Assembly: GCA_017460835.1 (NCBI GenBank)
Contig: JAFUAD010000027.1
Location: forward strand, 1-42,863
Reading direction: 5' to 3'
From: Oscillospiraceae bacterium
Lineage (GTDB): Bacteria > Bacillota > Clostridia > Oscillospirales > Ruminococcaceae
DNA length: 42,863 nucleotides
The notes under the pieces were generated by a model. It did not search any database, was not told where the DNA came from, and was given only the letters and a program-made list of their open reading frames with translations. Numbering within the stretch: position 1 is the first letter of the stretch; every line of letters starts with the position of its first letter. This document shows, piece by piece, positions 2,631 through 29,648 of this stretch. The position numbers and the translations under genes were made by a program.

Positions 2631-4229
2631 ATGACAAAGTATATTTTTGTGACCGGCGGCGTGGTGTCCGGGCTCGGCAAGGGCATCACGGCGGCCTCGC
2701 TCGGCAGGCTGCTCAAAAGCCGCGGACTCAAGGTCGCCGCGCAGAAGCTCGACCCCTATATCAATGTTGATCCCGGCACGATGAGCCCCTATCAGCACGG
2801 CGAGGTCTATGTCACCGAGGACGGCGCGGAGACCGACCTCGACCTCGGCCACTATGAGCGCTTCATCGACGAGGACCTCAACCGCTTCTCCAACCTGACG
2901 ACCGGAAAGGTCTATGCGAATGTGCTGCACAAGGAGCGCCACGGCGAATACCTCGGCAGAACCGTGCAGATCATCCCGCACATCACTGACGAGATCAAGC
3001 GCTTCATTTACAGCGTCGGCGAAAAGGGCAATGCCGATGTCGTCATCACGGAGATCGGCGGCACGACCGGCGATATCGAGAGCCAGCCCTTCCTCGAAGC
3101 GATCCGCCAGCTCCGGACGGAGGTCGGGCGCGAGAATACGCTCTATATCCATGTGACGCTCGTGCCGTATCTTAAGGCTTCGGGCGAGCACAAATCCAAG
3201 CCGACGCAGCACTCCGTCAAGGAATTGCAGGGCTTCGGCATCTCGCCGGATATTATCGTGCTCCGCACCGACGAGCCGATCACAGACCGGAGCATTTTTA
3301 CAAAGATCGCGGGCTTCTGCAATGTCAAGCCGGACTGCGTCATCGAAAACCTGACGCTGCAAAGTCTCTATGAGGCGCCGCTGATGCTCGAACAAGCGCA
3401 TCTCTCCGAGATCGTCTGCCGCGAGCTGGATTTACAGACGCCCCCGCCTGATCTTTCCGAATGGGAGGCGCTCTGTCAGCGCATCCGGCAGCCGCGCAGG
3501 CAGGTCACGATCGCGCTCGTCGGAAAATATGTGCAGCTCCATGACGCCTATCTTTCGGTCGCCGAGGCGCTGCATCACGCGGGCTATCAGCTCGGCGCGG
3601 ATGTGCAGATCGACTGGATTGATTCGGAGCAGATCACAAACGAAAACGCTGCCGGAATTCTCGGCAGCGCAGACGGGATTCTGATTCCCGGCGGCTTCGG
3701 GCAGCGCGGGATCGAGGGCATGATTTCGGCGGCGCAGTATGCGCGGGAATCGGGGAAGCCGTTTCTCGGCATCTGCCTCGGCATGCAGATCGCGGTCATC
3801 GAATTTGCGCGGCACAAAGCGGGGATTCCCGATGCACATTCGGGAGAATTCGCGCCGCACTGTGAACACAAGGTCATCGACTTCATGGACGGGCAGTCCG
3901 ACAGCATCGACAAGGGCGGGACGCTCCGGCTCGGAAGCTGCCCCTGTGTCATCGCGCCGGACACGACGATGATGTGCTGCTACGGTCAGCCGCAAATCGC
4001 GGAGCGGCACCGCCACCGCTATGAATTCAACAACGCCTTCCGCGATGTGCTGACGGAAGCGGGGCTCTGCATCAGCGGCACCTCGCCGGACGGCAGTCTC
4101 GTCGAGACCGTCGAGCTGACGGCGCTGCCGTTTTATGTCGGGGTGCAGTATCATCCGGAATTCAAGAGCCGCCCGAATAAGCCGCATCCGCTGTTTCTGG
4201 GGCTGGTCAGGGCGGCATTGGGGGCATGA
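2631..4229 (+). CDS. pyrG: CTP synthase
   Basis: A 532-residue CTP synthase: UTP + ATP + glutamine to CTP. It starts [20 protein letters not shown], the standard N-terminus, so the ATG at 2631 is preferred over the in-frame GTG two codons upstream. The synthase domain carries the P-loop GLGKG and the Mg/UTP segment [11 protein letters not shown]. The C-terminal class I glutamine amidotransferase domain carries the nucleophile in [14 protein letters not shown] and the His/Glu pair in [12 protein letters not shown]. Length is normal. It sits 15 bp after the GltB3-like gene and 1 bp before purF, apparently in one operon. Confidence 0.97.
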
Positions 4230-19958: not shown

Positions 19959-22163
19959 TCATATCCCGGATGCTTCAAGCTGAACCGTAAACTGCTCCGA
20001 TAACTGGCAGTCCTTGTCCGTTTCGATGACAAGATGCCATTCCGCCATATCTTCCGTCCCAATCTCCGGAACCAGCCGCTTCACCGTTACGCTGTGCTGC
20101 GTGAGCGCGGTCACCTCATGCCGGACGCTTCCGCTGGTCTCCTCCAGCAGCACGAGCACAAGCTGATGCGTCTCAAACCAGTCGTCGGTATAATTTGTCA
20201 GGATATCCCGGAATCCGGGCGTATAGTCCGCCTCGCCGATGCTTCCGTAGCCCTCAAAATCATACAGCGATTCATTCCGGCTGATATAATCATCGAGCTC
20301 CTCGCGGCTCCGGATGATGCACACCTGCGGATACCGCACGCCGCTGTGATAGCCGTTTGTCCGGATATACTGCGCCGAGAACGGGTACGGTTCCGACGGG
20401 GTATCGCCGGTATGATTGAAATAGATATGCGGAATTTTCCAGCGCTCGTAGAAATACTGCCGGTGCTCGTCGTCATAGCGGAAATAGCTGATGCCGTCGG
20501 TGTCGTGAACCAGAATAAACTCTTTGCCCTGATCGTCGAGCCAGATCTCCATGCAGAGAATGCCGGAGGTCCATTCCACATCCCAGCCGCCCTCCTCGAG
20601 CAGCGCGTACATCGCCTCTGTGCAGCCGTATGCGTCACAGATCTCCTTTGCCCGCTCCTTTGTGAGACGCGGCGCATCTCCTCTGTCTTCGTTGAAATGA
20701 AAGAAAACAGAAGGGTCGAGCTCCGATTCCCATGCATTCTTATAAGGGAGCATCCGGTAGCACTGAATCTCATCGGTGCGCTCGGCGGTGTGCTCCGGCG
20801 GAATATACAGTATGTCGTCCTCCTCGGTGACATATCCGTAGGAATTGTCGCCCATGACATCCTCCGGCGGCGCGGCATGCTTCAGGTATTTTGTCTGCAT
20901 GCCGCCGTCAATCTGCACATATTCCGCGTTGTTTACAGCCGGCTGCGGAAGATTGAAAATCAGCAGATTGTCCGCCTGCGTAAAAATGAGCACGGTTCCG
21001 ATTGCGTCCTGCTCAGTCTGCGCATTCCAGAGCTGATCGCTCTGCACGGAAAACAGCTCCTGTTCCGTTTCCGGCTCATCATAGCGGATGCTGCAAACGC
21101 GCCACTGTCCGTCGCCGTTATGCACGGAATAGATGACAGAATCGCCGAGATAATACGGCCCGTCATAGCCTTTCTTGCCAACCGGCATAATGTTTTTGTC
21201 CTCTGATGTCAGATCAATGCAATAGCAGCCGAGCCCGGCACTGCTCGATAACTGATAGTCCATATCATCGGAGCTCACATAGTTAGAGGTAAAATAGAGC
21301 TTGTCGCCGGAAAGGCGCAGATCGCTCATATTCCGCATAACCGGATAGATTTCTTCGCAGAAATCGCGGTCGGTGAAGCTGTGCCGGCAGACGTAGCCTT
21401 TTTCATAATCGACCTCGTAATAGCCCGTGCCGTCTCCAGTTGCAGATGGGTTCCATAGGGACGCACGCTCTGCGGAGAGAATCTCCTGCGATGCGGCATT
21501 GTAGATGACCTCATAGAGCTCGACGGCATCCTCCTGCGGGAACTGATAGCGGATCGCGTACCAGTCGCCGGTGAGATGCTGCACGCCCGTGAACATCAGC
21601 AGATCCTCCGTGAGATTATAGCCGGGGCAGTCCGTTGTCAGTGTGAAAAATGCGGTCAGAACGCCCTTGCTGTCGATGAGCCAGAGCTTGCGCCATTCCG
21701 CCTCGTACATGCGCTCGCCGTCTGACAGAATGTGATGATCTGTGCTGATCGCCTCCATGATGATGCTGTCGCCGTCCGCGGTGTCGTCCGGGCGCCAGCG
21801 GTTCATCATCAGCAGCTCGTCGGATGCCGCAACCGGCATCATGTAGCAGTATTCCGCATCCCGCAGAAGAATCTGATCGCCCGTGCTGAGATACGGCCTG
21901 AGCTCGCCGTGCCCGCCGAGGAAATTCTGTTCGCTCTCGCTGAGTGCCGGCGGTGCAGAGCGTGTTTCGGGTTTGTTTTTGCGTGCGCTGAAGAATAAAA
22001 ATCCTGAAACCACGGCAATTGACGCCGCGATGCCGCAGATGCCGAGGGTCATGCGGCGGATCTCGCGCGAATGCTTCCGCTCGCTGCCGTCCCATGTCAC
22101 GGCCTCCTCAATATAGTCCCGGCGGATTCCGCTCATGATCTCCGTGTATTTGGTCTCATTCAC
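19959..22163 (-). CDS. Large single-pass membrane protein, putative anti-sigma / sensor
   Basis: A 734-residue protein not recognised as a named family. Residues 1-37 are a charged cytoplasmic tail, about 38-60 are one membrane segment (ICGIAASIAVVSGFLFFSA) and the remaining 670 residues should be outside the cell. The ectodomain has repeated short beta units (LRLSGDKLYFTSNY, YYLGDSVIYSVHNG, IGTVLIFTQADNLLIF) suggesting a propeller, then a C-terminal part (about 620-730) with HQLVLVLLEETSGSVRHEVTAL, weakly reminiscent of PrcB C-terminal domains. Its ATG overlaps the stop of the ECF sigma gene, the classical arrangement for a cognate anti-sigma factor, and the tail-plus-membrane layout agrees. 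No zinc-binding anti-sigma motif is seen. Confidence 0.65.
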   Translation of the reverse strand: MNETKYTEIMSGIRRDYIEEAVTWDGSERKHSREIRRMTLGICGIAASIAVVSGFLFFSARKNKPETRSAPPALSESEQNFLGGHGELRPYLSTGDQILLRDAEYCYMMPVAASDELLMMNRWRPDDTADGDSIIMEAISTDHHILSDGERMYEAEWRKLWLIDSKGVLTAFFTLTTDCPGYNLTEDLLMFTGVQHLTGDWYAIRYQFPQEDAVELYEVIYNAASQEILSAERASLWNPSATGDGTGYYEVDYEKGYVCRHSFTDRDFCEEIYPVMRNMSDLRLSGDKLYFTSNYVSSDDMDYQLSSSAGLGCYCIDLTSEDKNIMPVGKKGYDGPYYLGDSVIYSVHNGDGQWRVCSIRYDEPETEQELFSVQSDQLWNAQTEQDAIGTVLIFTQADNLLIFNLPQPAVNNAEYVQIDGGMQTKYLKHAAPPEDVMGDNSYGYVTEEDDILYIPPEHTAERTDEIQCYRMLPYKNAWESELDPSVFFHFNEDRGDAPRLTKERAKEICDAYGCTEAMYALLEEGGWDVEWTSGILCMEIWLDDQGKEFILVHDTDGISYFRYDDEHRQYFYERWKIPHIYFNHTGDTPSEPYPFSAQYIRTNGYHSGVRYPQVCIIRSREELDDYISRNESLYDFEGYGSIGEADYTPGFRDILTNYTDDWFETHQLVLVLLEETSGSVRHEVTALTQHSVTVKRLVPEIGTEDMAEWHLVIETDKDCQLSEQFTVQLEASGI

Positions 22164-22726
22164 AGTAATTCCTCCTTTTCAAGCTGTTTCCTCAGCGCAT
22201 TTCGGGTACGCAGGAGCGTCATTTTCGTCTTGCTCTGGCTGATGCCGCATTTCTCCGCGATCTCCTTAATGCTGAGATTGCCCCAGTATCGCAGGACGAA
22301 GATGACGCGGGTCTCCTTCGGCAGAGTGCCGAGAAAGCGGTTCAGCGCATCGCTGAGCGCAATGGTGTCGATCGACTGCTCCGGCGTATCCGGATGCGCG
22401 AGGGTGTTTTCGATCTCGGAGAGCGCGGTGCAGATGACGCCGCTGCCGCGCTTTTCGGCGTGCTGCGCGGCGCGCCGGTTGCAGGCGAGGTTCCGCACAA
22501 TGACGGAGAGGAAGGCGGCAAACCGGTTCGGCCGGTTTGGCGGGATGGATTCCCACAGCTTCATAAGGGAGTCGTTGAGGCATTCCTCCGCGTCCTCGCG
22601 GCTGCCGAGGATACCGTATGCGATGCTGCTGCACAGCTTGCCGTATTTTTGCTGGGTCGCGGCGAGCGCCTGCTGATCGCGGCAGAAATACAGCTCGATG
22701 ATCTCCTCGTCAGTGAGATTCTGCAT
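22160..22726 (-). CDS. ECF-type RNA polymerase sigma factor
   Basis: A 188-residue sigma-70 family protein with region 2 (YGKLCSSIAYGILGSREDAEECLNDSLMKLW) and region 4 helix-turn-helix (LPKETRVIFVLRYWGNLSIKEIAEKCGIS). The start at 22726 (MQNLTDEE) follows AAGGAG; the frame is open upstream but runs into a MITE-like element. Its stop overlaps the start of the membrane protein gene by 4 bp. The pair is probably a sigma/anti-sigma switch responding to an extracellular signal. Target genes are unknown. Confidence 0.9.
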   Translation of the reverse strand: MQNLTDEEIIELYFCRDQQALAATQQKYGKLCSSIAYGILGSREDAEECLNDSLMKLWESIPPNRPNRFAAFLSVIVRNLACNRRAAQHAEKRGSGVICTALSEIENTLAHPDTPEQSIDTIALSDALNRFLGTLPKETRVIFVLRYWGNLSIKEIAEKCGISQSKTKMTLLRTRNALRKQLEKEELL

Positions 22727-22754
22727 GGCACACACTCCTTTCTGTCTGATTTGA

Positions 22755-22992
22755 GGCAACACCGCGCAAAGCCCGCCTGACGGCTTGGCGGCACATCTGC
22801 TTGCAGATTTTCCGCCATCTTGCACGAAAACTCCATGCCGGGCGCATGTTTCGCAAAGCGAAACTGCGCAGTTTGCAAGCAAACGTGCGACAGCCCAGCG
22901 GCGTCGTTTTCATACAATCTGACGAAAAATCTGACTGGTCAAACGAGTTTGACCGAAAGCATCCTGCACCACCAGCTCTGTGCGGTGTTACC
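22755..22992. mobile_element. MITE-like element with imperfect terminal inverted repeats
   Basis: A 238-bp noncoding unit with 14-bp imperfect terminal inverted repeats, GGCAACACCGCGCA (22755-22768) and TGTGCGGTGTTACC (22979-22992), matching at 12 of 14 positions, flanked on both sides by TTGA (22751-22754 and 22993-22996), a possible target duplication. The inside is full of palindromes: ATCTGC/GCAGAT, GTTTCGC/GCGAAAC, AAACTGCGCAGTTT and GGTCAAAC/GTTTGACC. It contains the 31-bp repeat shared with 75-105. It encodes no protein and sits in the 5' leader of the ECF sigma gene. Confidence 0.6.
22845..22875 (-). repeat. 31-bp hairpin-forming dispersed repeat, copy 2
   Basis: Exact reverse complement of 75-105, lying within the MITE-like element. 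Confidence 0.75.
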
Positions 22993-23098: not shown

Positions 23099-23245
23099 GT
23101 TCGCATGTCTCCGCCTTGCCGTCGCCTGAAGAATAAAACCCGCTTGAAGCAGGTGGGTATCTGCCTGCGCCGCGCATGCTCCCTGCTACCGCCGAAGGCG
23201 GGAGGTCTGCAATTCTGACACAGAGCCGGATTCCCTGGTTACATA
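23062..23245 (-). ncRNA. ssrS: Small RNA of about 185 nt, 6S RNA candidate
   Basis: An independent minus-strand unit: consensus-like promoter at 23280-23252, start near 23245, and an intrinsic terminator at 23098-23062 with a strong U run. No reading frame of note. Length matches 6S RNA (about 180-200 nt). Internally it has a CTCCC/GGGAG hairpin with CCGCC/GGCGG inside and a CACCTGC/GCGGGT-type helix; short 5' (TATGT) and 3' (ACATG) segments can pair as a closing stem. The overall look agrees with clostridial 6S RNAs as I remember them, but this is recognition by resemblance. SRP RNA, tmRNA and RNase P RNA were considered and do not fit. Confidence 0.55.
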
Positions 23246-23251
23246 TGTTGG

Positions 23252-23280
23252 ATTATATCAAATCAGGCTTGCTCGCACAA
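23252..23280 (-). promoter_or_regulatory. Promoter of the 6S-like RNA
   Basis: Minus strand: TTGTGC (23280-23275), 17-bp spacer, TATAAT (23257-23252). Confidence 0.75.
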
Positions 23281-23379
23281 GGCAGAATCTGCTTTGCTGC
23301 TATTAGTATATCATGAATGCACCGAAAAATCAACCGGTAAATTCAACTAATATTTCCGCTCAATTTTGGATACTTTTAC

Positions 23380-23730
23380 TTATTCTGCCGATTCTTCCTC
23401 GTCTTCATCCTCGTCCTCGAAGTCCTCGTCCAGACGGTCAATGAAGATCTGCGCGATGCGCTCGTATTCCTCGTCGCTCTCGATCGGCTCCAGAATATCG
23501 CCGCCGTCCTCGTCCTCGGCAACGGACAGCACGACCAGCTCGCACTCGCCCTCGAGCAGCTCCTCCGGATTTTCCACATGCGGAATCAGTGCAAAATACA
23601 CCTTGCCCTCTTCCTCGTAAATATCAATCAGCTCAAACAGCTTTTCATTGCCGTCCTCATCGACCAGCGTGTAGAGCTCCGGCGAATCCATCAGTTCATC
23701 CAGTTCATTTGGCGTGTTTTGATCAAGCAT
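23380..23730 (-). CDS. DUF1292 family acidic protein
   Basis: A 116-residue very acidic protein with the DUF1292 (YrzB-like) core: YTLVDEDGNEKLFELIDIYEEEGKVYFALIP followed by a short beta segment (CELVVLSVAED) and an Asp/Glu tail (DEDFEDEDEDEEES). The start at 23730 (MLDQNTPNE) follows GGGAG. The function of the family is unknown; in many Firmicutes it lies in the yrrK/ruvX neighbourhood, but not here. Its own consensus promoter is at 23821-23793, back to back with the promoter of the large noncoding RNA. Confidence 0.85.
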   Translation of the reverse strand: MLDQNTPNELDELMDSPELYTLVDEDGNEKLFELIDIYEEEGKVYFALIPHVENPEELLEGECELVVLSVAEDEDGGDILEPIESDEEYERIAQIFIDRLDEDFEDEDEDEEESAE

Positions 23731-23792
23731 ACTATACTCCCGTTCTGCCGGACGCATCCGGACGCAAATTTGCGGGTTCCCCGCATGCTATT

Positions 23793-23821
23793 ATTTTACC
23801 AGTTTTTTCCGTAAATGTCAA
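23793..23821 (-). promoter_or_regulatory. Sigma-A promoter for the DUF1292 gene
   Basis: Minus strand: TTGACA (23821-23816), 17-bp spacer, TAAAAT (23798-23793). Confidence 0.85.
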
Positions 23822-23876
23822 GTCCTATCTTTCTCAAAGAAATTCTAAAATTTCCAAAAAAAGTTGCCGAAAACTA

Positions 23877-23905
23877 TTGACAAAACATAAAGAATGTGCT
23901 ATAAT
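23877..23905 (+). promoter_or_regulatory. Sigma-A promoter for the large noncoding RNA
   Basis: TTGACA at 23877-23882, 17-bp spacer, TATAAT at 23900-23905: a perfect consensus promoter, expected to be strong. Confidence 0.9.
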
Positions 23906-23911
23906 AAGACC

Positions 23912-24677
23912 ATAGAGAACAGATCGGTCAATTCCGAGGCGGCGGCTCTGAAGGCAAAGAAATCTTCCGCTGCTTCTGTTACAGCTTTTTCCCTGTTCTT
24001 TATGAATCCATGCGGCATTTCCGGGCTGTGAAAAAGCCCCCCGGAACACTGTGCAGCGGCACAGCGGGATCTGCCGCAGAATCTGATTCCGAAAGGTGCG
24101 TGAGTCCAATGGAAATGACGGAAACTGTCCCGGTCATTGACGTCGGCTCGTGCAGCAGCAATGCAGCGTTTTCTGTGTAACATTTCTGCACTCTTCGCCG
24201 TCGGTTGTGTGTGAGTCAAGCACAAGGAGAACCGACCATGCGGGTGCGCTTCCGATCCGGAAACCGGCACAGAAAACCGTTGCTCGACGGAGCAGCGAGA
24301 CTGCTTGCCGGCGCACAGCCGCAATTCAGCAGAACGGAATATGAAACTGCAATCGGTGCAGTTGACGGCGGGGATCGCCTGACTGCGGGAGTGACCGCAC
24401 AGCGATCGGCTGACCGCCGGAAAAACGGTATCAGCGTCAATGCCAGAAGGGGAATGTGATCCATCCTCTGTGCGGCTGTGTCTGAATGCACGATCAGATA
24501 CAGATTCGCTGGAGACTGAAAGAGGCGTATGTCCGAACATACGGTGCGGTCTCCTCACAAATACGGCTACCTCCTTTGAGGGTCTTGCCTGTATTGACAT
24601 ATCTTTCCCATCTATACCGTTACAATTGAATAAAAAATAAGGGGAGGCTTTGAACAGAAAGCCTCCTTTATTTTTTT
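23912..24677 (+). ncRNA. Large structured noncoding RNA, about 766 nt, class not identified
   Basis: A transcription unit with a perfect promoter and a long terminator but no credible gene. Many perfect helices can be drawn. Two nested long-range helices close the molecule: 23927-23932 with 24593-24598 and 23952-23957 with 24585-24590. Local domains: a 7-bp helix 24011-24017/24072-24078 enclosing hairpins 24019-24046 and 24049-24064; 24114-24119/24133-24138; 24200-24206/24230-24236; 24281-24285/24290-24294; a three-tier arm 24366-24371/24414-24419, 24373-24378/24402-24407, 24384-24388/24395-24399; and an arm 24511-24516/24549-24554 with 24526-24532/24537-24543. Size and ornament recall large bacterial RNAs such as ROOL, GOLLD or OLE, but I cannot assign a class. 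No RNase P or tmRNA signatures were found. Confidence 0.75.
24635..24677 (+). terminator. Terminator of the large noncoding RNA
   Basis: A stem of about 16 bp pairs AAATAAG...GGCTTT (24635-24651) with AAAGCC...TTATTT (24658-24673), 6-nt loop, followed by a T run. Confidence 0.92.
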
Positions 24678-24707
24678 GCGCTGCGCCGATGAAATGTGAA
24701 AAACCGC

Positions 24708-24736
24708 TTGCTTTTTTGCCTGAAATATGGTACAAT
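24708..24736 (+). promoter_or_regulatory. Promoter for the SseB-family gene
   Basis: TTGCTT at 24708-24713, 17-bp spacer, TACAAT at 24731-24736. Confidence 0.7.
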
Positions 24737-24788
24737 GAACATAACCGCCGGATTACGGCGAAATACCGAAAAAACAGGAGGACTTGCA

Positions 24789-25718
24789 ATGGCAGAGCCG
24801 AATCGTAAAATGGACCCGGTCACCAATCCCGTCCTTGTGGATGCAATGGCGACCTTTAAGCTCGATCTGACAAACCGCGAGCATGAAAAGGCTTTTCTGG
24901 AAGCGGCACTTGAAGCAAAGTATCTGCTTCCTGCGAAAATTGAACAGCTGAAGGATCAGGCAACACCGGACGGACAGGTTCCGACCCGGATGGCGTTTTC
25001 TGTATTGACCAATGCAAACGGCGACAAGTTTATGCCGGCATTTACCGACGAGATCGAGCTGAAGAAAAACCGCAAGGGGCTCGAAAATGAGCCGCTTCAG
25101 ATCGCAGTCGTCGATTTCCGCGCGCTTTACAGCTTCATCAAGCAGAGCGAGGAGATCAAGGGCATCGTCATCAACCCGTTCGGCAGCGCACTGTGCCTTG
25201 TAAGGCAGCAGGTGCTCGCAATCGGCGAAAACGGATTCAAAATCGTCGTTGCGCCGCCGAAGCAGCAGGTCTTTGACCTCACCACGCCGCCCGCTCCGAA
25301 GCCTGCCAATGTGCTCGGCGCACCGGAGGACGACAGCAAGGCGCGCGCGGATATGATCCGTCAGGCAATGGCGGATATGGAGGCTGCGAAGGATTCTGAG
25401 GACACCGAGGAGGAGACCGCCGATCCGCTGACCGACGAGCTGCTGACCGCGATGAAGGGTTCGCTGAAAAAGCAGAAGGCTGTCAAGAAGGCGTATATCA
25501 AGGCGGAAAAGGATAACGGCGAGCGCTTCCTGCTGGTCGCGCTGGAATCCGATGCTTCCGATTCCGAGCTGGAGGATATCGGCAACTCGGTCAGAGAGGA
25601 CTGCGCCGATTACACCGATCTCGCATTCGATTTCATCAAGGCGGATTCCATTCGCGCAAAGGATCTGGTCGCGGAGGAAAAGCCGTTCTATGAGAAGAAG
25701 CGCTTTGGCTTCTTCTGA
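24789..25718 (+). CDS. SseB-family protein
   Basis: A 309-residue protein with an N-terminal SseB domain (about 20-150; HEKAFLEAALEAKYLLPAKIE, then FMPAFTDEIELKK and GIVINPFGSALCLVRQQV), an acidic linker (about 175-215) and a C-terminal SseB-C domain (KKAYIKAEKDNGERFLLVALE). SseB was named for serine sensitivity in E. coli; its biochemical role is not established. The start at 24789 follows AGGAGG. It has its own promoter and a downstream terminator, so it is monocistronic and independent of the upstream RNA. Confidence 0.85.
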   Translation: MAEPNRKMDPVTNPVLVDAMATFKLDLTNREHEKAFLEAALEAKYLLPAKIEQLKDQATPDGQVPTRMAFSVLTNANGDKFMPAFTDEIELKKNRKGLENEPLQIAVVDFRALYSFIKQSEEIKGIVINPFGSALCLVRQQVLAIGENGFKIVVAPPKQQVFDLTTPPAPKPANVLGAPEDDSKARADMIRQAMADMEAAKDSEDTEEETADPLTDELLTAMKGSLKKQKAVKKAYIKAEKDNGERFLLVALESDASDSELEDIGNSVREDCADYTDLAFDFIKADSIRAKDLVAEEKPFYEKKRFGFF

Positions 25719-25831: not shown

Positions 25832-27667
25832 ATGAAAAGAAAAGCCTTGCCGGCACTGTTGCTGGCAGCGGTTCTGTCTGCGAATCTCGCAGCGGGGCCG
25901 GTCAGAGAGAACGGGGCTGTTCTCTCTGCGAATGCGGCAGCCTCCGATACCAATGACGACTGGCTGCATGCAAAGGGAAGCCGCCTGTATGACAAGGACG
26001 GCAACGAGGTCTGGCTGACCGGTGCAAACTGGTTCGGCTTCAACTGTACCGAGAATGTGCTGCACTATCTCTGGAGCGGTGATATCAACGATATGGTGAA
26101 ATCCATCGCCGATCACGGCATCAATGTGCTGCGGATTCCGGTCTCGACCGAGCTGCTCTATAACTGGATGATCGGCGACCCCGATCCGATCGCGAGCGTC
26201 AATCCGAATAATGATCCGTATTATCCGTTTAATATTGATCTCATCAACGAGGACGGCTCGGTCATGAACAGCCAGCAGGTCTTTGATGTCCTGCTGAAAA
26301 AGTGCAAGGAAAACGGCGTGAAGGTCTTTATCGACATCCACAGCCCGGAATCCAACAACTCCGGCCATAACTACGGCCTCTGGTACGGCAAGAGCTTTAC
26401 CGCCAACAACGGCAAGACCGTTGAGGTGACGACCGATGTCTGGATCGAAACCCTTGCATGGACGGCAGATTATTACAAGAATGACGACACACTGATCGGC
26501 TTTGATCTCAAGAATGAGCCGCACAGCAAGTACGGCGGCGCGCCCGTCGATGCGATCTGGGATGACTCCAGTGCCCCGAACAACTGGAAGCAGGCTGCAC
26601 AGGACTGCGCAGATGCCATCCTCGCAAAGAACCCCTACGCGCTGATTCTGATTGAAGGCAATGAGGGCTTTGAGGGACACGGCGCATGGTGGGGCGGCAA
26701 CCTCAGAGGTGTTGCGAAATACCCGGTCATGCCCGCCTCCGGCACCAGCCAGATCGTCTATTCTCCGCATGACTACGGCCCGATCGTCAGCCAGCAGACA
26801 TGGTTTGAAAAGAACTTCACCGAGCAGACCCTGCTCGATGATTACTGGTATGACACATGGGCCTATCTGAACGACAAGGATCAGTATCCGCTGCTGATCG
26901 GCGAATGGGGCGCACTGCTGCCCGCTTCGTTCGATGAGAGCACGATCCTGACCGCAGACGCAACCAAGATGACCGATCAGGAGAAGAACGTCAGATGGCT
27001 GCTGCTGCTCCGCAATTACATGATCAAGCACCATATCAACCACACATTCTGGTGCCTGAACGATGACTCCGGCGATACCGGCGGCCTCTGGAAGGGCATC
27101 CAGTACAATCCGACGACCGGCACCACGATCGAATGGGATACCGTGAAATACGGCATCTTCGAGGAGGCGCTCTGGCAGACGCAGAAGACCGGCAAGTACA
27201 TCGGCCTTGATCACCAGAAGGCACTCGGCGCAAACGGCATCTCGCTCGGCGAGTTCTATTCGTCCTATGCTGCAACAGAGGGCAGCAACCTCGACGGCGG
27301 AACGATCTCGAGCGGCGGCACCGGCCCGAGCATCAGCACGGTCAGCACGACCACCACAACCTCTACAACCTCAACCACAACCACATCTTCCACCAGCTCG
27401 ACCACAACCAGCTCGACGACAAGCTCGTCGAGCGATGAAAGGCCCGGCAGCATCGTTTACGGCGACGCAGATTGCAGTCATAGTGTTGACGTGCTTGATG
27501 CTGTGCTTATCGCTCGTGTTGCTGCTGAGGACACGAGCTCGGGCATCACGGCGGAAGGGAAAATAAACGGCGATGTGACCGGCGACGGTACGATCTCGCC
27601 GGCGGATCTCAGCAAGCTCCTGAAATATCTCGCGAATCTGATTACGGAAGAACAGCTCAAGCCGTAA
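25832..27667 (+). CDS. Secreted GH5 glycanase with C-terminal dockerin (A)
   Basis: A 611-residue secreted enzyme. Order: signal peptide (about 1-36), GH5 barrel (about 40-480), Thr/Ser linker (about 500-540), type I dockerin (about 545-605). The putative acid/base is E229 in DLKNEPH and the nucleophile E358 in LIGEWG; WWGGNLRG and NHTFWCLN match cellulase-type GH5. The dockerin has two calcium loops, GDADCSHSVDVLDAVLIAR and NGDVTGDGTISPADLSKLL, so the enzyme should dock to a cohesin scaffold. The start follows AGAGGGGGAA. It is closely paralogous to the next gene, suggesting tandem duplication. Beta-1,4-glucanase activity is likely, but mannanase or xyloglucanase cannot be excluded. Confidence 0.93.
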   Translation: MKRKALPALLLAAVLSANLAAGPVRENGAVLSANAAASDTNDDWLHAKGSRLYDKDGNEVWLTGANWFGFNCTENVLHYLWSGDINDMVKSIADHGINVLRIPVSTELLYNWMIGDPDPIASVNPNNDPYYPFNIDLINEDGSVMNSQQVFDVLLKKCKENGVKVFIDIHSPESNNSGHNYGLWYGKSFTANNGKTVEVTTDVWIETLAWTADYYKNDDTLIGFDLKNEPHSKYGGAPVDAIWDDSSAPNNWKQAAQDCADAILAKNPYALILIEGNEGFEGHGAWWGGNLRGVAKYPVMPASGTSQIVYSPHDYGPIVSQQTWFEKNFTEQTLLDDYWYDTWAYLNDKDQYPLLIGEWGALLPASFDESTILTADATKMTDQEKNVRWLLLLRNYMIKHHINHTFWCLNDDSGDTGGLWKGIQYNPTTGTTIEWDTVKYGIFEEALWQTQKTGKYIGLDHQKALGANGISLGEFYSSYAATEGSNLDGGTISSGGTGPSISTVSTTTTTSTTSTTTTSSTSSTTTSSTTSSSSDERPGSIVYGDADCSHSVDVLDAVLIARVAAEDTSSGITAEGKINGDVTGDGTISPADLSKLLKYLANLITEEQLKP

Positions 27668-27800: not shown

Positions 27801-29648
27801 GTGAAGAAAAAAGGATTGCTGTCAGTGGCACTGGCAGCGGTCATCGCAGCAGGCGGCACACTGTCGCCGGCGAGCACAGTGCTGCAAAGCCCGGCACTGT
27901 CGGCCTCTGCTGCCGATGACACAAACGACGACTGGCTGCATGCCGAGGGCAGCCGCCTGTTCGACAAGGACGGCAATGAGGTCTGGCTGACCGGCGCAAA
28001 CTGGTTCGGGATGAACTGTACCGAGAACATTCCGCACGGCCTGTATGCGGTCGATCTGGATTTCATGCTGAGCAATGTCGCCGATCACGGCGTCAACATC
28101 ATCCGCTTCCCGATCTCGACCGAGCTGCTGCTTTCGTGGATGAACGGCGCACCGCTTCCGGTCAGCTCGGTCAATGCGAGCTATGATCCGCCGGTGGATA
28201 AGGTCGGCGAGGACGGCACGATTACAAAGGCGGGCACCTACGGCGACATCAACCGCTATTTCGTGGAATCGGACGGCAAAACGCTCAAGAATTCGATGGA
28301 CATTTTCGATGTGATCATGAAAAAGTGCAAGGAGTACGGCATCAAGGCGCTGATCGACGTTCACAGCCCGGCATCGCACAACTCCGGCCACAATTACACG
28401 CTCTGGTACTATCAGGACGGTGCCGAGGACGCCGACAATATGGCGGTCGGGCACTTCAGCGGGGAGCAGATCACATGGGACGACTGGATCGACTCGATCA
28501 CATGGCTCGCGAAGAAATACGCGAACGACGACACGATCATTGCCTACGACCTGAAAAATGAGCCGCACGGCAAGCGCGGATACAGCGGCGATACCTGCCC
28601 GACTACCATTGCGAAATGGGACGATTCGACGGACAAGAACAACTGGAAATATTCCGCAGAGCAGTGCGCGAATTCGATTCTCGCGGTCAATCCGAATGCG
28701 CTGATTCTCGTCGAGGGCATCGAGCAGTCGCCGATGTTCGATCAGGGCTATGACTGGAATACGCCGGATCAGTGGATCTCGCAGCCGACCGATAAGCCGA
28801 AGTGGTACGGCGCATGGTGGGGCGGAAACCTCCGCGGCGTCAGAGACCTGCCGATCTCGCCGAAATCCGGCAAAACGCAGATCGTATATTCGCCGCACGA
28901 CTACGGCCCCTCCGTGTATCCGCAGACATGGTTTGACAAGGATTTCACCGAGGAGACGCTGCTGGACGATTACTGGCGCGACACATGGGCATACATTAAC
29001 GAGGAGAACATCGCGCCGCTGCTGATCGGCGAGTGGGGCGGCAAAATGGAGCCCGCGAACAAGAAGTGGATGGAGCTGCTGCGCGATTACATGATCAGGC
29101 ATCACATCAACCACACCTTCTGGTGCCTGAACCCGAATTCGGGCGACACCGAGGGCCTGCTCGATACGCAGTTCACGAACTGGGACGAGGCAAAGTACGC
29201 GCTCTTTGAGGAGTCGCTCTGGCAGACGCAGCAGTCCGGCAAATACATCGGACTTGACCACCAGAAGGCGCTCGGCAAAAACGGCATTTCGCTCGGCGAG
29301 TTCTATGCGAGCTACGCAAGCACCGAGGGCAGCAACCTCGACGGCGGCACGATCGGCGGAAACCACGGCTCGACTGCCACGACACCGACCACGACGACTA
29401 CCACGACCACTACGACCTCGACCGAGCCGACTCCGATCGGCGACTTTGTCTGGGGCGATGCGGATTGCAGCGGCACGGCAGATGTGCTCGATGCGGTCAT
29501 GGTCGCGAGAATCGCCTCGGAGGACACCTCGACCGGCATCACCGACCAGGGAAAGAAGAATGCGGATGTCACGCAGGACGGCTCTGTCAAGAGCGACGAC
29601 CTTAGCCTGCTGCTGAAATTCCTCGCAGGCAAATACACACCGACATAA
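27801..29648 (+). CDS. Secreted GH5 glycanase with C-terminal dockerin (B)
   Basis: A 615-residue paralog of the preceding enzyme with a GTG start after GAGGGGG. Order: signal peptide (about 1-36), GH5 barrel, Thr-rich linker with Pro/Glu (about 530-550), dockerin. The putative acid/base is E254 (DLKNEPHG) and the nucleophile E411 (LIGEWGG). It differs from enzyme A in two surface segments: a longer loop around residues 120-165 (SVNASYDPPVDKVGEDGT) and an insertion before WWGGNLRG (MFDQGYDWNTPDQW...), both near the expected substrate cleft, so specificity may differ. Dockerin loops: GDADCSGTADVLDAVMVAR and NADVTQDGSVKSDDLSLLL. Confidence 0.93.
   Translation: MKKKGLLSVALAAVIAAGGTLSPASTVLQSPALSASAADDTNDDWLHAEGSRLFDKDGNEVWLTGANWFGMNCTENIPHGLYAVDLDFMLSNVADHGVNIIRFPISTELLLSWMNGAPLPVSSVNASYDPPVDKVGEDGTITKAGTYGDINRYFVESDGKTLKNSMDIFDVIMKKCKEYGIKALIDVHSPASHNSGHNYTLWYYQDGAEDADNMAVGHFSGEQITWDDWIDSITWLAKKYANDDTIIAYDLKNEPHGKRGYSGDTCPTTIAKWDDSTDKNNWKYSAEQCANSILAVNPNALILVEGIEQSPMFDQGYDWNTPDQWISQPTDKPKWYGAWWGGNLRGVRDLPISPKSGKTQIVYSPHDYGPSVYPQTWFDKDFTEETLLDDYWRDTWAYINEENIAPLLIGEWGGKMEPANKKWMELLRDYMIRHHINHTFWCLNPNSGDTEGLLDTQFTNWDEAKYALFEESLWQTQQSGKYIGLDHQKALGKNGISLGEFYASYASTEGSNLDGGTIGGNHGSTATTPTTTTTTTTTTSTEPTPIGDFVWGDADCSGTADVLDAVMVARIASEDTSTGITDQGKKNADVTQDGSVKSDDLSLLLKFLAGKYTPT

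Follow-up and report, generated by a model that had tools for sequence, protein, structure and literature searches.

On the evidence of sequence comparison, positions 23877–24673 of the 42,863-nt stretch of DNA analyzed here (the window) are a stand-alone RNA gene with its own promoter and terminator, and the data support its assignment to a new class of large structured RNA that is absent from Rfam 15. In the reading we prefer, to which we give a probability of about one half, this terminator-ended RNA of ∼760 nt, from a family outside Rfam, couples its fold to translation of a short internal reading frame (ORF1) and so would sense the availability or activity of ribosomes. New here are the relatives, found in 52 of 63 motif matches, the neighboring 6S RNA gene, a Shine-Dalgarno (SD)-like motif with an ORF that lies over helices, and the mini-ORFs of one clade of relatives (clade B).

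The promoter seen in the initial annotation, TTGACA-17-TATAAT, agrees with the consensus throughout and carries a TG ahead of its −10 element. All 25 loci checked in clade A, the clade of the window, have an identical perfect promoter including the TG, the window copy being counted. The predicted intrinsic terminator was likewise recovered, on the same (+) strand 0.73 kb beyond the promoter, and its stem is conserved (Table 1). Strong expression of the RNA would be expected, judging from the promoter only.

Table 1. The RNA gene, its predicted elements and the adjoining genes, in window coordinates
Feature	Position	Strand	Evidence
6S RNA (RF00013)	23104–23291	−	52.3 bits against 46.4 for gathering; ∼0.6 kb upstream of the RNA
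DUF1292 gene between 6S and the RNA	23380–23757	−	Pfam PF06949, E 9e-16
Promoter TTGACA-17-TATAAT, sigma-70, TG-extended −10	23877–23905	+	12/12 consensus matches
RNA gene, putative transcript ∼760 nt, start ∼23912	23912–24673	+	Promoter-to-terminator homologs in relatives
5′ domain closed by helix P1, 23912–23922/23993–24003	23912–24003	+	At least 9/11 positions pairable in 16/19 sequences, 11/11 in 7
Multi-hairpin junction with inner hairpins, 24005–24009/24085–24089 and 24011–24022/24067–24078	24005–24089	+	91/95 and 182/190 cells; 3 and 4 compensated pairs
SD-like motif GAAAGGnGnGTGAGTCCN ahead of start codon	24091–24108	+	Only match in the window; 0 in 100 shuffles
ORF1, 23 codons, MEMTETVPVIDVGSCSSNAAFSV, stop TAA 24178–24180	24109–24180	+	Conserved start motif and open frame
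Long-range helix Pa, 24134–24143/24434–24443, 5′ strand within ORF1	24134–24443	+	176/190 cells; 7/10 pairs compensated
Long-range helix Pb, 24145–24154/24312–24320, 5′ strand within ORF1	24145–24320	+	153/166 cells; 3 compensated pairs
Long-range helix Pc, 24168–24178/24267–24277, 5′ strand ending on first base of ORF1 stop	24168–24277	+	196/209 cells; 7 compensated pairs
Inner arm, 24188–24193/24242–24247, 24200–24205/24231–24236 and 24250–24254/24258–24262	24188–24262	+	93/108, 96/113 and 94/95 cells
Hairpin 24279–24285/24290–24296	24279–24296	+	128/133 cells; 5 compensated pairs
Hairpin 24345–24351/24357–24363	24345–24363	+	99/112 cells; 4 compensated pairs
Arm, 24366–24371/24414–24419 and 24373–24378/24402–24407	24366–24419	+	93/102 and 95/114 cells; 2 and 5 compensated pairs
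Hairpin 24469–24476/24485–24492, weaker	24469–24492	+	107/128 cells; 1 compensated pair
Arm, 24511–24517/24549–24555 and 24526–24531/24538–24543	24511–24555	+	113/126 and 90/90 cells; 4 and 2 compensated pairs
Stem 24560–24564/24591–24595	24560–24595	+	78/87 cells; 4 compensated pairs
Intrinsic terminator and T-tail; conserved stem extends 24635–24673	24640–24669	+	296/296 cells paired; 5 compensated pairs
SseB-like gene downstream of the RNA	24789–25718	+	Pfam PF07179, PF14581

The fold was obtained with RNAalifold from an alignment of 19 sequences (A1), which omits L012, L018, L020, L021, L053 (divergent), L066 (taken as the same record as L111) and L113 (a near-copy of L112). Compensatory change among homologs had been set beforehand as a test, and the fold passes it: 74 of its 158 pairs are compensated, with 2639 of 2878 cells paired and 268 changed on both sides, against at most 53 such pairs and 105 such cells in 200 shuffles; slid versions reach no more than 30 pairs. 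Since a structure fitted to the alignment on which it is scored is favored, we also derived the structure from one half of A1 and scored it on the other half, a strong but not fully independent test, as both halves come from one joint alignment of related sequences. Training on 9 sequences and testing on 10 leaves 1375 of 1612 cells paired (85%) and 47 pairs compensated (shuffle maximum 37); training on 10 and testing on 9 gives 1388 of 1676 cells (83%) and 67 pairs (shuffle maximum 45; 300 shuffles each). When slid, the halves are 34%–45% paired. Folding energy alone proves little, because the antisense strand (z −5.4) folds nearly as well as the sense strand (−299 kcal/mol, z −6.5, 20 shuffles).

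Several helices proposed at the outset are borne out by the homologs, namely the multi-hairpin junction at 24011–24078, the arm at 24511–24554 and the two outer tiers of a three-tier arm at 24366–24419. The two nested long-range closing helices are not conserved, with 60 of 113 cells pairing in 23927–23932/24593–24598 and 22 of 60 in 23952–23957/24585–24590. P1 is absent from that first list of helices. With its 5′ strand shuffled, 21% of trials reach 9 pairable positions and 0.1% reach 11, P1 itself being the best of many placements at a site that is not fixed in every sequence.

No Rfam 15 family matches 23877–24680 at the gathering threshold, and a search of 23700–24800 at E ≤ 5 returned eight rows, far below gathering and none of them OLE, ROOL or GOLLD; raiA and the other Rfam 15 families likewise give no covariance-model match for the RNA. 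Across the whole window, cmscan at gathering score reports one RNA only, the 6S RNA, and in the loci of 51 relatives only 6S RNA, tRNA and T-box reach that score. The initial annotation had offered a divergent member of the ROOL, GOLLD or OLE classes or a new class. Covariation, the held-out tests, the conserved promoter and the lack of an Rfam match point to a new class, and the last of these speaks against a divergent member. A tmRNA was rejected, as ARAGORN finds none in the window and Rfam gives no match. ROOL and GOLLD are likewise large; few known bacterial RNA classes reach the size of this one, and the function of several is unsettled. We recognized no description of the RNA in the literature at the level of titles and the beginnings of abstracts, and a folded RNA of ∼760 nt from Ruminococcus-type gut and rumen bacteria is apparently undescribed.

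Nucleotide searches with the window RNA match 25 of 61 genomes, some through the promoter only, and those with a relative as second query match 22 of 30 genomes of the genus. R1, a covariance model made from 19 sequences and covering the 5′ junction together with the start motif (142 positions), matches 27 of these 30 genomes at E ≤ 0.01 and 25 at E ≤ 8.4e-6; of the 25, 19 are sources of the model, so that their match is built in, and six are not (G006, G007, G008, G013, G014 and G028, the last being close to a source genome). By this measure, the RNA is conserved in at least 25 of the 30 genus genomes examined.

The best-conserved stretch, at 24091–24113, reads GAAAGGTGCGTGAGTCCAATGGA. A degenerate form of this motif has matches in 63 genome contigs, from which 52 relatives were retained by hand sorting; the other 11 (L040, L042, L048, L050, L056, L070, L072, L082, L084, L088 and L094) were dropped as chance matches on taxon, context and translation, before ORF1 was listed. 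The relatives comprise clade A (20 contigs of the window type), clade B (23 contigs, R. flavefaciens FD-1 among them) and clade C (9 contigs, from Neglectibacter, Acutalibacter and kin). A similar promoter lies 116–137 nt ahead of the motif in 18 of 25 clade B loci examined, and promoter-like sites lie 287–340 nt ahead of it in 5 of 9 in clade C. R1, a clade A model, scores the clade C member L069 well (40 bits) but fails to separate most members of clades B and C from chance matches. The proposed kinship of the three clades rests on the 23-nt motif, the promoter, ORF1 and partial 6S synteny. Strict searches with the exact motif, own genome included, find it in 6 of 396 family genomes and 2 of 394 order genomes, both of which are lower bounds. 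One match on a viral contig (L102) looks like chance. On one 8.1-kb contig (L052), the RNA locus occurs twice, 3,842 bases apart; shifted by this distance, the contig agrees with itself at 3921 of 4158 bases, the result of either a tandem duplication or an assembly effect.

The initial annotation saw no credible gene in the region. This stands for long frames, none of which is kept in all homologs; it does not stand for short ones, as ORF1 lies inside the RNA. Searches by tblastn with five window ORFs gave partial matches, many with stops, and a hidden protein gene was rejected because no frame stays open across all homologs. Two antisense matches to 24216–24491 (L013 and L009, 32%–33% identity) are nearly full length and stop-free; Pfam gives no match at E 0.001 for the antisense ORF of 296 amino acids that spans the region. 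A stop-free frame covers 24216–24491 in 4 of 19 homologs in sense and 9 of 19 in antisense, in differing phases (shuffled, 1.3 and 3.7), and 24238–24459 in 6 and 12 of 19 (shuffled, 2.5 and 6.6). The antisense strand is thus somewhat more open than chance, with no frame open throughout. The frame from 24238 (MRVRF...) was also rejected: it runs for 9 to 95 codons in 15 sequences, and its conservation is read as structural because of this variable length and the want of a consistent SD.

ORF1 is a different case. Its ATG, set by the conserved motif, opens a frame of 16–26 codons in 51 of 51 listed relatives (the 52nd, L051, is too short downstream to be listed), although such lengths are often expected by chance and related sequences are not independent. 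In each of the sets tested (A20, A23 and B), variation is greatest at the third codon position, and frame 0 is stop-free in all 38 sequences of the codon test, an openness that for A20 and A23, picked by ORF length, is partly by construction. The synonymous fraction is 0.236 in A20, 0.205 in A23 and 0.258 in clade B, against 0.219, 0.230 and 0.196 in shuffled columns (70, 109 and 27 of 200 shuffles as high), in a test confined to clades A and B, with 15 of the 20 listed clade A contigs. The codon signal is therefore weak, with a synonymous excess that is small or absent. A reading frame conserved across homologs had been named in the initial annotation as grounds for giving up a noncoding RNA, and what is found goes part of the way, a frame of this length with little codon signal. 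That the best-conserved stretch of the RNA consists of the SD-like motif and the ORF1 start, in all 51 listed relatives, makes the description "purely noncoding" doubtful.

ORF1 also overlaps the fold. In clade A, it contains the 5′ strand of each of Pa, Pb and Pc, the last reaching as far as the first base of the stop codon; in three members (L053, L055 and L077) the usual stop is gone and the frame closes some codons further on. In clade B (16 sequences), two strands within ORF1 and a third that begins at its stop have pairing partners downstream. Compensated pairs number 5, 2 and 8 in these three helices, jointly 15 of 24, compared with at most 11 in 300 shuffles. A competing helix of GUGAG in the start motif with CUCGC in ORF1, noticed by eye, was rejected: it is broken in L112, again by eye, and conflicts with Pb. 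In clade C, an ORF1 hairpin occurs in phase 0, 1 or 2, and in all 8 distinct sequences frame 0 is open with its stop 3–9 nt behind the hairpin; 1 of 16 shifted frames (L065) likewise stops just behind it. Because the stop tracks a hairpin that shifts phase, selection looks to act on the position at which a ribosome would stop, not on the peptide. The ORF1 peptides are similar within clades and strongly different between them.

These features suggest a model in which ribosomes would load at the SD-like motif, in the linker behind the 5′ junction, and read through ORF1. Their passage would melt Pa, Pb and Pc by freeing the 5′ strands of these helices, with termination falling at the far edge of Pc. 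Frequent initiation would hold the central domain open, and rare initiation would let the RNA close into a compact form, so that the RNA could report ribosome availability or activity with the peptide sequence being of little importance. Candidates for what the RNA would act on are a protein that it binds, RNA polymerase, the 30S subunit and another RNA.

The main rival is a purely noncoding ornate RNA, a scaffold or protein-binding molecule, whose start-like motif and open frame arise incidentally from the conservation of structure and sequence. We regard this as possible, if on the unlikely side. The covariation is very strong, the codon signal of ORF1 is weak, and the best-supported helices overlap ORF1 and could by themselves explain its conserved sequence. 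Such an RNA would not be expected, however, to keep a stop just behind the clade C hairpin as this shifts among three phases, and it accounts poorly for the frame-specific mini-ORFs of clade B. Downstream of ORF1, that clade has recurrent RBS-like elements with tiny frames, such as ATG AGA TAA, ATG AGA AGT TGA, ATG AGA ATT TAG and others. Among 51 RBS-preceded ATGs in 21 clade B loci (four of the 25, L051, L075, L093 and L108, were dropped), 33 stop within 3 codons in frame. The corresponding figure is 6 of 51 in each shifted frame and 36 of 147 for other ATGs, and 300 shuffles average 12.0 with a maximum of 22; the RBS pattern behind this count was written after viewing the same sequences, the FD-1 repeats enter it repeatedly, and kinship among the loci makes them non-independent. 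Also against a purely noncoding RNA, 16 of 20 listed clade B loci have the stop of their second ORF at codon 3 or 4, and all three stop codons (TAA, TAG and TGA) occur there.

The mini-ORFs admit a further reading, a ribosome or tRNA trap in which the strong binding sites and very short ORFs of an abundant RNA would titrate 30S subunits or cause peptidyl-tRNA drop-off. It draws on R. flavefaciens FD-1, where the relative of the RNA contains tandem 70-nt units (L092, 3067–3328; 3.8 copies by TRF) with four RBS-like motifs at 70-nt spacing, each followed by ATG AGA TAA. The lambda bar minigenes are such two-codon minigenes. According to PMC8708949, citing others, toxicity is highest for minigenes of two codons and rises further with a strong SD and with a UAA stop; yet the native minigene studied in that paper itself is not toxic and acts in cis. 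The window RNA has a single 23-codon ORF and no mini-ORF array, which also argues against a trap, and clade A has no comparable RBS-led mini-ORFs. Coincidences of an SD-like element and an ATG in clade A, before the loop at 24250–24262 and in the terminator loop, were rejected as mini-ORFs because their lengths vary widely or they lie inside the terminator. We consider a trap improbable.

We give little credence to a short mRNA that acts through the small peptides it encodes. Peptide similarity clade by clade and the variable third codon position would fit it, but the peptides diverge strongly between clades, their second half is read in different phases in clade C, and structure gives the strongest signal. 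Least credible of all is a long leader that controls the next gene: a same-strand gene, here the SseB-like gene, does start ∼115 nt beyond the terminator, but it lies downstream of the RNA in three loci (L001, L002 and L012) and on its other side in six (L005, L006, L009, L014, L027 and L030), three clade C loci (L060, L080 and L098) have a different protein there, by eye one with an HD domain, and a strong terminator intervenes. A cis-acting uORF or attenuator leader was rejected on the same grounds.

On its other side, the RNA often adjoins 6S RNA: of 51 loci scanned, 24 (10/15 + 8/18 + 6/18) have a 6S RNA gene upstream in opposite orientation, with a gap of roughly 0.5–0.7 kb in loci measured by hand. 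Among loci that reach far enough, counted by hand, the neighbor is present in 11 of 14 in clade A (absent from L004, L007 and L014; 7 further loci are too short), 7 of 7 in clade C (2 too short) and 6 of 18 in clade B (absent from L041, L043, L046, L052, L058, L061, L062, L063, L064, L067, L075 and L086; 3 too short). From these counts, the neighborhood looks ancestral, with loss in much of clade B. In clade A, 19 of 20 loci have a DUF1292 gene beside the RNA, upstream and in opposite orientation; in the window, a second near-perfect promoter, TTGACA-17-TAAAAT (23793–23821, −; 11/12), is directed at this gene. An ECF-type sigma factor gene (22160–22882, −) lies close to the 6S RNA, as also in L002 and L003. 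Farther downstream, two adjacent genes (25832–27667 and 27801–29648, +) encode GH5 cellulases with type I dockerins, enzymes of the cellulosome type.

Building on our preferred reading, in which translation of ORF1 refolds the RNA, one may speculate that Oscillospirales-type bacteria carry a new class of self-contained RNA devices, often beside 6S, that read ribosome activity through refolding driven by an ORF of ∼20 codons, with additional minigenes of 2–3 codons in the R. flavefaciens clade. Such devices would be a translation-side counterpart of the transcription-side sensing by 6S RNA. This broader proposal is rated lower, as a doubtful one, because 12 of 18 testable clade B loci lack a 6S neighbor. 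The locus nevertheless adds a further large bacterial RNA with a covariation-backed fold, a frequent 6S neighbor and a relative in a named strain, R. flavefaciens FD-1. Its built-in ORF offers a direct handle on whether a ribosome can drive a large structured RNA, and the FD-1 array of two-codon ORFs, if translated, would be an unusual use of minigenes.

Like OLE, ROOL and GOLLD, the RNA stands alone, is large and has many helices; unlike them, it has a conserved RBS-like motif and a short ORF and often adjoins 6S RNA, and no Rfam model matches it. 6S RNA (RF00013) itself is a frequent neighbor on the opposite strand, and its model does not match the new RNA. With the leader ORFs and uORF attenuators covered in PMC11109978 the RNA shares a short ORF that overlaps RNA structure, and it is proposed to work somewhat as they do; but it has no consistent downstream gene and ends in a terminator, and by the criteria given there it is not a uORF. 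The ATG AGA TAA frames behind RBS-like motifs in clade B resemble the two-codon minigenes of PMC8708949, but these units, of which the window RNA has none, are arrayed inside a structured, stand-alone RNA.
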